Of a stretch of 64,000 nt of DNA, positions 47,066-56,939 are shown piece by piece. Positions within the stretch are counted from its first letter, which is position 1. Each line of letters opens with the position of its first letter. Below the pieces are notes generated by a model that did no database searches, was not told where the DNA came from, and was given only the letters and a program-made list of their open reading frames with translations. Where the stretch lies: positions 1 through 64,000 of the forward strand of contig MNXJ01000038.1 in the NCBI GenBank assembly GCA_001872455.1, read 5' to 3'. Source of the stretch: Anaerolineae bacterium CG2_30_57_67 (GTDB taxonomy: Bacteria > Chloroflexota > Anaerolineae > Anaerolineales > Villigracilaceae). The position numbers and the translations under genes were made by a program.

Positions 47066-47641
47066 ATGATAGCCACCTTACGCGGTGAAATTACCCAAGT
47101 TGAAGAAAATGCCCTCGTGCTGGAAGTTGGCGGCGTGGGGTTGCGCGTGTTTACGCCCAAACCGCTGCTGACTCAATTCCAGCCCGGCGAAATTGTACTT
47201 TTGCATACGCATCTCGTCGTGCGCGAAAATGACCTGGCGCTCTACGGCTTTGAAAGCGCCTCTGAACGTCAACTTTTCACCACCCTGCTCGGCGCGGATG
47301 GCGTCGGGCCGAAAATGGCGCTTTCCGTGCTTTCCACGCTCGACCAGGAATCGCTGCAGCGGGCCGTTTTCAGCGAGGAGCCCGATCTGCTCTCGCGCGT
47401 GCCCGGCGTCGGCAAAAAAACCGCCCAAAAATTGATGTTTTACCTCAAGGACCGCCTCAAACCAATCAGCGGGTTGGAGCGCATCGCGGCGCTCTCCGAT
47501 GCAGACGGTGAAGTGTTGGCCGCGCTGACCGCGCTGGGGTACTCCGTCATCGAGGCCCAAACCGCGCTCCAATCCCTGCCCAAAGATGCTCCGCAAGAGG
47601 TGGAGACGCGCCTGCGCCTGGCGCTCGGATATTTTCGGTGA
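47066..47641 (+). CDS. ruvA: Holliday junction branch migration protein RuvA
   Basis: MIATLRGEITQVEENALVLEVGGVGLRV; GVGPKMALSVLS; PGVGKKTAQKLM. Confidence 0.93.
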   Translation: MIATLRGEITQVEENALVLEVGGVGLRVFTPKPLLTQFQPGEIVLLHTHLVVRENDLALYGFESASERQLFTTLLGADGVGPKMALSVLSTLDQESLQRAVFSEEPDLLSRVPGVGKKTAQKLMFYLKDRLKPISGLERIAALSDADGEVLAALTALGYSVIEAQTALQSLPKDAPQEVETRLRLALGYFR

Positions 47642-50651: not shown

Positions 50652-51107
50652 CTACTGGGGCTGCCAGACGCCTTGTTTTTCCAGCCGCCCATCGGCGGCG
50701 TAGATGAAATAAGTCAATTCCATCGGCACGACTTTGCCGAGCATGGCTTGCGCCGGGCAATATTTCAGCGCTGAAAGTTCAATCGCGCGCCGTACCGCCG
50801 CCTCGTCCAGCGCCTCGCCGCCGAGGTGATATTCGATGACGATATGCGTAAAAATGTGCGGATGTTGGTCGGGCTGGTCGGCGTGAACTTTGACTTCAAA
50901 CTTCTGCACCGCCTGCTGTTTCTTGCGCAAAATGGAAATCACATCCATCGCCGTGCAACCGGCCAGGCTGACGGCCATCAATTCCAGCGGGCGAAAACCG
51001 TCGTTGGCGCCACCCACTGCCGGGTCCGCGCCGAGCGGCACGCTGAAGCCCGTCTCGGCGCTGCCGCTGAAAGTCATGCCCTCGCTCCAGGTTACTTTTG
51101 CGTCCAT
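50652..51107 (-). CDS. OsmC family protein
   Basis: MDAKVTWSEGMTFSGSAETGFSVPLGAD; PLELMAVSLAGCTAMDVISILRKKQQ; KYCPAQAML. Confidence 0.9.
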   Translation of the reverse strand: MDAKVTWSEGMTFSGSAETGFSVPLGADPAVGGANDGFRPLELMAVSLAGCTAMDVISILRKKQQAVQKFEVKVHADQPDQHPHIFTHIVIEYHLGGEALDEAAVRRAIELSALKYCPAQAMLGKVVPMELTYFIYAADGRLEKQGVWQPQ

Positions 51108-51118
51108 AAAAAACTCCT

Positions 51119-51721
51119 CTACCGTTGCAGCATGGGGGTGACGTATTTTTCCAGCATTTCGCGGCTGATTGCGCCGGTCCACGTCAGGCGCACCGTTCCG
51201 GCGCGGTCAATCACAAACGAGGTCGGCAGCGAATCGGTGCGAAAAGCCGTCGTCGCCACCCACTTCGGGTCGGGCCAGACCGGGAACGTCAGCCCGTACT
51301 CGGTCACAAATTTGGCAACTTCGTTCACTGGCTCGCCGTCTTCGATGGCGACAATCACAAACCCCTGTTCGCGGTGGGCTTCGTAGTAAGCCTGCAGAGT
51401 CGGCATTTCCTGTTTGCAGGGCGGGCACCAGGTGGCCCAGGCGTTGTACAGGATGACCTGACCGGAGAAATCGCTCAGCGCGACGGGCTTGCCCTGCAAG
51501 TCCGAAATTTCCACCGCCGGGGCAGGGAAATTCACCTCAGACGGGATGGCCGAGGCCGCCGAAAGGTCGTTGGCCGCTCCGGCAGCGCTCTGCTTCGGCA
51601 GGGAGAGAAACGCCGCCAGCGCCACCAAAATCAGCCCGGCGCCAATCACCAGCAAAATGATGTTTTGGGATGAAACACTGCGCGCCCGCTGACGGGCTTC
51701 TGCGCGTTTGGAAGGATTCAT
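51119..51721 (-). CDS. TlpA-like thioredoxin-family protein, membrane-anchored
   Basis: VILYNAWATWCPPCKQEMPTLQAYY; N-terminal TM; start MNPSKRAEARQRARS. Confidence 0.9.
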   Translation of the reverse strand: MNPSKRAEARQRARSVSSQNIILLVIGAGLILVALAAFLSLPKQSAAGAANDLSAASAIPSEVNFPAPAVEISDLQGKPVALSDFSGQVILYNAWATWCPPCKQEMPTLQAYYEAHREQGFVIVAIEDGEPVNEVAKFVTEYGLTFPVWPDPKWVATTAFRTDSLPTSFVIDRAGTVRLTWTGAISREMLEKYVTPMLQR

Positions 51722-51773: not shown

Positions 51774-52445
51774 TTATTTTTCCACGGCCCGGCGAACTTC
51801 TGCCAGTAACTGGGCTTCGGGAACGGCGCCCAGCGCGCGCCCGGCGTCGTTGTTGATGACGGTATCTGGCACGCCACTGATGGCGTATTGGTTGGCAAGC
51901 GCAGAAAACTCGGTGGCTTCCACGCCTTCGGCCAAAATCATGGCCGGGTTCTCCATGGCAAACTGGTGAGCGAGCAACACGGCTCGCGGGCAATACGGTC
52001 AGGTAGGGGTGACAAAAACCTGCAGGTGCAGCGGTTTTTCCAGCGATTTGAGATACTCGCGGGTGGCCGCCGTCAGGCCCGAATCGCGCCCGGAAATCAT
52101 GAGGATGTCTTGGACGAGGGTGCCAAATTCGTGGCCGGAGGGCAGGCCGAGGAAGCGGATGCCCAGGTCGGTAATCTGACCACCGTCTTTGGCGGCCAGG
52201 ATGATGGCCGGGGCTTTGCCGGTCACATTGTAGTGAGCGGCCAGGTCGGCTTCGGCTTCGATGTCGTGAACACTCATCTCGATCAACGGAGAGAGTTCGG
52301 CAACTTCGCTGAGCAATTGTTGTGTTTCGGCGCAATAGTCACAGTTTTGCTGTGAGGCAAACAGCAGCGCCGCCACCGGGTGCTGGAGTTGACCGAACAC
52401 CTGGCGAACTTGCTCAACGATTTCTTGCGGGAGCAATTTATCCAT
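51774..52445 (-). CDS. probable selenoprotein: glutaredoxin-like protein disulfide oxidoreductase with in-frame TGA (Sec) at the second active site
   Basis: Reading through TGA (51999-52001) joins two ORF-track entries: ...LHLQVFVTPT-[TGA]-PYCPRAVLLAHQFAMENP...VEK. The first thioredoxin fold carries CDYC; the TGA replaces the first Cys of the expected second CPYC motif. Confidence 0.8.
51970..51987 (-). promoter_or_regulatory. candidate bacterial SECIS hairpin
   Basis: Minus strand GCGAGC-CGTGTT-GCTCGC; apical loop begins 17 nt after the TGA and has G at its second position. Confidence 0.65.
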
Positions 52446-52498: not shown

Positions 52499-52672
52499 TC
52501 AGGTGCAGCCGGCGCCTGCGCTGGTACTAAATCCGCAGCGCGGGCATTCCAGTTCCAACATGCCGTTGTAGTCGAGAATGCCCTGCCCGCATTGGGGGCA
52601 AACCGCGCCACGTTGAACGGGAGTCGTTTTCGGCGGCGTCTGGGGCGGTTGGGCTGCTTCTTTTGGATGCAT
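52499..52672 (-). CDS. 57-aa zinc-ribbon protein (not in ORF track), ends ...GCT-TGA-TAA
   Basis: MHPKEAAQPPQTPPKTTPVQRGAVCPQCGQGILDYNGMLELECPRCGFSTSAGAGCT; two CxxC knuckles. Confidence 0.75.
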   Translation of the reverse strand: MHPKEAAQPPQTPPKTTPVQRGAVCPQCGQGILDYNGMLELECPRCGFSTSAGAGCT

Positions 52673-52694: not shown

Positions 52695-52949
52695 CTACTT
52701 GAAAAATTCGCTCAGGTCGAGCGCGCTCATCAGGCGTTCCTGCACTTCGCCGGGCAGGGCAATTTTTTCAGCAGATTGGCGGTACAGGTAGAGCGTTTTG
52801 GTGGTGGTATCCAGCACGACGCGGCAATTTTCACAGCCGCGAATGTGGCGTTCGATTTCCTGGCAAAGTTCTGGGCTGAGGCTGCCGTCCACATAATCAG
52901 AAATGGAGGCGAGCAATTCCTGGCAAGTGAGAGAGTAGGTGTGAGTCAT
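52695..52949 (-). CDS. zinc-binding anti-sigma factor (ZAS-like, zf-HC2)
   Basis: HIRGCENC fits HxxxCxxC; immediately downstream of the ECF sigma gene. Confidence 0.85.
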   Translation of the reverse strand: MTHTYSLTCQELLASISDYVDGSLSPELCQEIERHIRGCENCRVVLDTTTKTLYLYRQSAEKIALPGEVQERLMSALDLSEFFK

Positions 52950-52950
52950 A

Positions 52951-53547
52951 TTAAGATACCTCGCGGACACGCTCACCAAAATAGCTGGAGAGTTTTTCGC
53001 GCAGTCGAAGCCGCGCGCGCAAGAGACGGGTTTTAACGGCAGTTTCGCTCAAGTTGAGCGCCTCGACAGTTTCTTTGATGGAGAGGCCTTCGATGTCTCG
53101 CAGCAAAAAGACGACACGCAGGCTGTCGGGCAGGTGCTGGATGGCCTGGTCGAGCTGCTTTTTGGCTTCAGCCGAGACAAATTCACTTTCGGGCAGGCAG
53201 CACCAGTCGGTGAATTGCATGGGCGCCAACTCTTCGTCGCTGTCGTCGGGGTTTTCATCCACCGGAATTTGCGATTTGCGGCGGCGCAGGGTCATCAGGG
53301 CTTCGTTGGCAGCAATGCGATACATCCAGGTGGAAAGCGAGGAGCGTTCTTCAAAACCGTGAATGTGCTGGAGCGCTTTGAGAAAGGTGTTTTGCAAAAC
53401 ATCTTCCGCGTCCGATGGGTCACCGGTCATTTTGAGGGCGAGCCGGTAAATGGGGGTGCTGAAGCTGGCAGCCAGCCGGGCAAATTCGGCGCGGTCGCCC
53501 GCTTTGAGGGCGGCGATGGAAATTTCCGGAAATATGGTTTCAGTCAT
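52951..53547 (-). CDS. ECF RNA polymerase sigma factor (sigma-70 family)
   Basis: GDPSDAEDVLQNTFLKALQHIHGFEERSSLSTWMYRIAANEALMTLRRRK; LPDSLRVVFLLRDIEGLSIKETVEALNLSETAVKTRLLRAR. Confidence 0.92.
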   Translation of the reverse strand: MTETIFPEISIAALKAGDRAEFARLAASFSTPIYRLALKMTGDPSDAEDVLQNTFLKALQHIHGFEERSSLSTWMYRIAANEALMTLRRRKSQIPVDENPDDSDEELAPMQFTDWCCLPESEFVSAEAKKQLDQAIQHLPDSLRVVFLLRDIEGLSIKETVEALNLSETAVKTRLLRARLRLREKLSSYFGERVREVS

Positions 53548-54031
53548 TGGATGTTTCCTGAGGCAAAAGGTTGCAAATGTCACCCAAAGTATACCCGAAA
53601 TGGTGAATTCACCCACCGCCGGCAGGTTGGGGAAGTTAACGACTTTAATATCTTATCAGTGAAATTCTTGCACAAAAAGCAAGGAAATTAACCACAAAGG
53701 GTCACAAAGAGTCACGAAATTTTTTGGTTTTCCTTTGTGTTGTTTCGTGGCCTTCGTGGTCAAATCTCTTTCGGCTTGTCCGAGTTAGAAAAGGCATGGT
53801 TTTTTGGCACTATCTTTGCGCGGATCTGTGACCTGGCGCTAAAATGTGTTTCAATCGCTTCCAAGGGCTTTTTCGGCATGGCTACATCCTACGGCATAGT
53901 CAGTTTTGCCTCAATTTAAATGTGATTGCCGCGGGAGAATTTGTAAAGTAAAGATGGAAGTTGGCCGGTTGGATGTATAATGACCGAAATGAATTTACCA
54001 AATAAGTTTTCACAATAAAGGATGTGTCCCC

Positions 54032-56516: not shown

Positions 56517-56939
56517 GTGAAAACCTCCTTCGTCAGCCACTCCCCCGCCGAAACGCGCGAATTTGGCCGTAAACTGGGCGCGTTGCTGCGTCCCGGTAGT
56601 CTGCTCTGCCTGCAAGGCGACCTGGGCGCGGGCAAAACCACCCTGACGCAAGGCGTCGCCGCCGGTTGGGGCAGCGCCGACCCCGTCTCCAGCCCGACCT
56701 TCGTCATGGTCAATCTCTACCGCGCCGCCGACGGCACGCCGCTTTATCACATGGACGCCTACCGCATCGAAAATCTGCGCGAAGCCGCCGAACTCGGCTT
56801 GGACGAAATGCTGGCCGAAGGCGCGCTCATCGTCGAATGGCCGGAGCGCATCGCCGCGCTTTTGCCCGCTAGCCGCCTGTGGCTGACGATGGAACACCTC
56901 GGCGAAACCGAACGCAAAATCACCGTAAATGCTGAATGA
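56517..56939 (+). CDS. tsaE: tRNA threonylcarbamoyladenosine biosynthesis ATPase TsaE
   Basis: CLQGDLGAGKTTLTQGVAAGWG; SPTFVMVNLY; HMDAYR. Confidence 0.92.
   Translation: MKTSFVSHSPAETREFGRKLGALLRPGSLLCLQGDLGAGKTTLTQGVAAGWGSADPVSSPTFVMVNLYRAADGTPLYHMDAYRIENLREAAELGLDEMLAEGALIVEWPERIAALLPASRLWLTMEHLGETERKITVNAE

Follow-up and report, generated by a model that had tools for sequence, protein, structure and literature searches.

A predicted selenocysteine-containing protein disulfide oxidoreductase with a UPYC active site in a Chloroflexota genome

Does a TGA codon in the middle of a gene for a protein disulfide oxidoreductase (PDO) end the protein, or is it read as selenocysteine (Sec)? The question was raised by two neighboring open reading frames (ORFs) on the minus strand of the 64,000-nt stretch of DNA analyzed here (the window), which the original prediction had joined into a single selenoprotein gene. 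The host genome is a draft of 87 contigs with a completeness of 98%, and it was examined together with other genomes of the phylum.

The reading frame and its protein family

The DNA sequence, the ORFs, and the translation agreed that the two minus-strand ORFs are one frame, interrupted by a single TGA at 51999-52001. With this TGA read as Sec, the PDO gene (51774-52445, minus strand) starts with an ATG at 52445, closes with a TAA ending at 51774, and encodes 223 amino acids. The protein matched the NCBIfam model TIGR02187 (PDO_seleno_TRX) with 255.5 bits, above the curated cut-off of 185, and the alignment of residues 8-219 to positions 3-208 of 209 spanned the full model. The closest PDB sequence was 1a8l, the protein disulfide oxidoreductase of Pyrococcus furiosus. 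It aligned with residues 15-217 (E 6e-38) across both thioredoxin folds, and in this sequence alignment each fold of the window PDO carried a redox pair.

In the first thioredoxin fold, residues 35-38 form the CDYC motif (52332-52343), and in the second, residues 149-152 form the UPYC active site (51990-52001), both on the minus strand. The TGA is codon 149, in the context LQVFVTPT-U149-PYCPRA, and is a predicted Sec codon on the basis of the sequence and the codons of the homologues. Its placement on the first Cys of a second CPYC motif, with CDYC in the first fold, had been part of the original prediction and was seen again in both the translation and the homologue alignment, where C35, C38, C/U149, and C152 were invariant (alignment A3). 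The P. furiosus PDO shares the two thioredoxin folds, the CxxC in each, and the second-site context VFVTPTCPYCP, but has CPYC, that is, Cys where the window PDO has Sec. The host was assigned to the Chloroflexota from named relatives, of which the nearest came from Chloroflexi bacterium HGW-Chloroflexi-6, at 66% and with TGA as the codon in question, and from an Anaerolinea sp. MAG, at 65% and with TGC.

The codon at the Sec/Cys column in homologues

Matches to TIGR02187 above the cut-off were obtained in 98 of the 399 genomes of the phylum, many of them with exactly one internal stop, which was always TGA. Among 90 aligned Chloroflexota homologues, the codon at column 149 was TGA in 53, TGC in 25, and TGT in 12, and nothing else occurred. 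The column was therefore Cys or Sec in 90/90 sequences, conserved as the original prediction had expected, and the window gene has an in-frame UGA where homologues have Cys. Since some relatives at about 60% identity carry Cys at this column, Sec is dispensable for the PDO family.

It is very improbable that the TGA is a real stop, leaving a pseudogene or a truncated one-domain protein. Although TGA is an ordinary stop in the host genome and the ORF caller ends the PDO there, just as had been foreseen for standard gene callers, in 53 homologues it occupies the codon of a catalytic Cys, and no in-frame TAA or TAG was present in the full-length homologues. The stretch 3′ of the TGA was conserved as much as the 5′ stretch or more in the homologue comparison, with third-position changes well above second-position changes, and this protein constraint after the codon likewise speaks against a stop.

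The same codon pattern bears on a sequencing or assembly error that turned TGC or TGT into TGA. A draft of 87 contigs, and the TGC or TGT of several relatives at about 60% identity, would be compatible with such an error, but many independent genomes share a TGA at this codon, and this recurrence excludes the error in practice. The restriction to TGA, TGC, and TGT in 90 homologues is a strong argument against an error and against a decayed gene alike. We consider the error extremely unlikely; the original prediction had named a true TGC or TGT as the finding that would overturn it, and this is disfavored by the recurrence.

Sec machinery and the use of TGA as a stop codon

A selenoprotein reading presupposes the Sec machinery, and all of its components were found in the host genome: selA (421 bits), selB (357 bits, full length), selD (346 bits), and a tRNA-Sec whose anticodon is UCA (65.1 bits). 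SelA, SelB, SelD, and tRNA-Sec thus occur together in one genome, as the original prediction called for. The selD gene has an in-frame TGA of its own in the context SSCAG-U-ASK. This gene, at G000:C25:9356-10291 (L020), thus belongs to the selenoprotein genes as well, and its one TGA is followed by a 7-bp hairpin within the permitted spacing.

Other genes of the window end in TGA in the usual way. It terminates the RuvA-like ORF at 47066-47641 and the TsaE-like ORF at 56517-56939, in keeping with what had been claimed for both genes. It was the stop of 10 of the 47 long non-overlapping ORFs of the window, the truncated PDO being one of them. Since TGA is a normal stop elsewhere in the window, the genetic code shows no global change, and the earlier view that global recoding is unlikely was supported. 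The frame does stay open beyond the TGA, as it would if the UGA were read through in another way, by recoding to Trp or Gly or by a near-cognate tRNA, with an ordinary residue inserted. We assign this possibility a negligible probability, however, in view of the normal TGA stops elsewhere, the alternation of the TGA with Cys codons only, and the presence of tRNA-Sec with its UCA anticodon and a full Sec pathway.

A selA match was found in 49 of 51 genomes with a TGA-form PDO (hand tally). The two without one, G029 and G212 (loci L047 and L090), are 88% and 76% complete. Because selA is so widespread in the phylum (322 of 399 genomes, whether the PDO had TGA or not; P of co-occurrence about 0.1), its co-occurrence with the TGA-form PDO is weak evidence, and it was dropped as a discriminator of TGA forms.

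The SECIS hairpin of the window gene

Downstream of the TGA and within the coding sequence lies a predicted bacterial SECIS hairpin, GCGAGC-CGUGUU-GCUCGC (51970-51987, minus strand), identified by folding and by its conserved stem. It was as originally described: a perfect stem of 6 bp, a 6-nt loop with G at position 2, and 17 nt from the UGA to the loop. Folding of the 54 nt that follow the TGA gave this hairpin as the minimum free energy (MFE) structure, at −13.6 kcal/mol. The bSECIS model asks for a loop of 3-9 nt, a stem of 4-16 bp, G in the first two loop bases, a spacing of 16-37 nt, and an MFE of −7.5 kcal/mol or lower (PMC13188914). The window hairpin lies within every one of these numeric limits, so that the claimed fit to the published bacterial pattern held.

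On the single sequence, the significance of the window hairpin is weak. It was no more stable than dinucleotide-shuffled sequence (z = −0.64), and synonymous-codon shuffles of the window PDO produced a hairpin of this strength within the permitted spacing with P = 0.026; the case needs comparative data. These were provided by relatives with TGA at the same codon and the same hairpin (L052, L053, L055, L059, L068, and L132). The stem is kept in five TGA relatives, and L132 has the same stem. Among six sequences, those of the window gene and of five relatives with TGA, 5 of 6 third codon positions within the hairpin were invariant, and the change at the sixth, A to G, still pairs with U. Outside the hairpin, by comparison, only 1 of 12 third positions was invariant and 11 varied (Fisher P 0.004). 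Almost no covariation of its own was seen in the hairpin class of the window. The Cys relatives lacked the window-type hairpin, and both this absence and the presence of TGA with the same hairpin in the six named loci count further against a sequencing error. A window-like hairpin loop, GCCGUG, was also observed in the TGA-form PDO genes L148 and L153, from MAGs labeled Bacillota and Acidobacteria.

Global folding measures were less informative. Mean folding energies downstream of the codon did not tell TGA homologues apart from Cys homologues (−16.8 vs. −17.5 kcal/mol, P 0.37), and a generic hairpin search with synonymous shuffles reached P < 0.05 in 7 of 54 TGA sequences and 0 of 37 Cys sequences. 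Since this signal was weak, column-specific pairing was used instead.

A second hairpin type in other homologues

In 37 other TGA homologues, among them L056, L057, L058, L063, and L066, a second hairpin, GGCCA-GNN-UGGCC, was found with 22 nt before the loop (alignment A1). Its loop (AGG or AGU) is reminiscent of that of the Escherichia coli fdhF SECIS. The outermost pair of this hairpin links two silent third positions of Ala codons and was paired in 36 of the 37 sequences (GC 19, CG 8, GU 5, AU 3, UG 1, one mismatch), while the same third-position columns pair in 21 of 37 Cys homologues. None of 500 shuffles reached the covariation score of this pair, although the shuffle control leaves room for an effect of relatedness, and the signal was lost when the partner columns were slid. 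The changes in the second hairpin are compensatory at silent third positions and have no counterpart in the Cys homologues.

The best explanation for the gene

Together, the Sec machinery, the Cys/Sec column, and the conserved hairpin supported the reading as a selenoprotein with UPYC. Judging from the sequence, the gene almost certainly encodes a Sec-containing protein disulfide oxidoreductase of the TIGR02187 family, with Sec insertion predicted at codon 149. A ribosome arriving at the UGA at 51999-52001 would encounter SelB with its Sec-tRNA-Sec, anchored by the SECIS hairpin that lies 17 nt further on. The UGA would then be read as Sec and not as a stop, yielding one protein of 223 residues with CxxC in fold 1 and UPYC in fold 2. 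In the C-terminal active site, the Sec would probably be the attacking residue, and a thioredoxin reductase would be the likely electron donor that keeps it reduced; the candidate is the one TrxB-family gene that exceeded its cut-off in the host genome.

Exchange of Cys and Sec

An unrooted maximum-likelihood tree, built from 91 sequences, required 10 changes among Cys and both types of Sec, and its well-supported branches forced at least 7 Cys/Sec changes. Because the tree is unrooted, these counts take the switches in either direction. One sister pair belongs to a single genus, with L059 (G381) having Sec and the hairpin, and L044 (G297) having Cys and no hairpin. By its sequences, this pair shows a recent Cys/Sec switch inside one genus, which makes the PDO family a usable case of Cys/Sec exchange. 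The best tblastn alignments of the Micrarchaeota homologues L173, L174, and L175 had Glu (GAG) at the Sec/Cys column, which may reflect a loss of the second active site.

The gene neighborhood

All the neighbors described here are on the minus strand. Downstream of the PDO, a membrane-anchored TlpA/AhpC-TSA-like thioredoxin with a WCPPC motif is encoded at 51119-51721 (Pfam AhpC-TSA, 85 bits), and it adjoins the PDO in 7 of 12 inspected relatives. The cluster ends with an OsmC-like protein at 50652-51107 (Pfam OsmC, 63.5 bits), which was also found in L118, L120, and L121. A zf-HC2 anti-sigma-like protein with an HxxxCxxC motif is encoded at 52695-52979 (Pfam zf-HC2, 44 bits; likely start at the internal ATG 52949), and its motif is kept in 8 relatives. 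An ECF-type sigma factor follows at 52951-53616 (Pfam Sigma70_r2 and Sigma70_r4_2; likely start at the internal ATG 53547), and a gene of this kind was beside the PDO in 8 of 12 inspected relatives. Directly upstream of the PDO, a Zn-ribbon-like ORF of 57 aa with CPQCG...CPRCG was noticed by eye at 52499-52672.

The order sigma factor, zf-HC2 anti-sigma factor, PDO, TlpA-like thioredoxin, and OsmC was partly or fully kept in most of the inspected relatives of the same family and order, with Cys-form and Sec-form PDO alike. L112, L113, and L114 have a sigma/anti-sigma pair that is oriented divergently to the PDO. RsrA-type ZAS anti-sigma factors have an HxxxCxxC zinc site and release an ECF sigma factor on oxidation, and the window protein, with its conserved HxxxCxxC motif, is a candidate for this type. 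The sigma/anti-sigma pair at 52695-53616 may belong to a thiol-stress regulon, and the TlpA-like thioredoxin, the OsmC-like protein, the ECF sigma factor, and the Cys/His anti-sigma factor next to the PDO suggest a thiol or peroxide stress unit. The PDO would serve in such a redox-stress unit as a cytoplasmic thiol-disulfide exchanger.

Relation to known selenoproteins and significance

TIGR02187 with UxxC is on lists of predicted selenoprotein families, with the label "Homolog of AhpF N-terminal domain (Grx-like domain protein)" and the reference ABB15282.1 (PMC9312934, PMC13188914). In a 2006 survey, Carboxydothermus and Symbiobacterium were the hosts given for the homolog of the AhpF N-terminal domain, and three unnamed selenoprotein families were counted in Chloroflexi (PMC1794560). 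Since the family is already known as a predicted UxxC selenoprotein family, the window PDO is no new type of selenoprotein, and the word "unannotated" in the original prediction would apply to this locus alone. It shares with that family the full-length match, the UxxC motif, the in-frame UGA, and a downstream bacterial SECIS; it differs in its host, a member of the Chloroflexota (Anaerolineae-like), a phylum unmentioned for the family in PMC9312934, PMC13188914, and PMC1794560. Glutaredoxin and thioredoxin selenoproteins (UxxC; PMC9312934) likewise carry Sec in place of the leading Cys of a CxxC active site within a thioredoxin fold, but they have a single fold and belong to other families. 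The literature searched, whose coverage was partial, contained no description of the TIGR02187 family in Chloroflexota. The present analysis adds the frequency of the Sec form in the phylum, the repeated switching between Sec and Cys, the occurrence of SECIS elements of two shapes at a single site, and the conserved neighborhood of ECF sigma factor, zf-HC2 anti-sigma factor, PDO, TlpA, and OsmC.

There is a practical consequence for annotation. Ordinary gene callers end the PDO at residue 148 and drop the second active site, and the same loss would hit a large share of the full-length PDO homologues of the phylum, with TGA in 53 of the 90 aligned here.

A wider reading is plausible but tentative, and we hold it with somewhat less than even confidence. 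Within one gene family of one phylum, a single codon may have changed several times between Cys and Sec. In every Sec lineage, the codon would be followed at one location by either of two distinct SECIS hairpins, one with a CGUG-type loop 17 nt after the UGA and the other, GGCCA-GNN-UGGCC, 22 nt after it, and a thiol-stress sigma factor would control the expression. If this is true, the pattern of Cys/Sec exchange and two hairpins would be a natural experiment on the origin and decay of SECIS elements inside a protein-constrained stretch.
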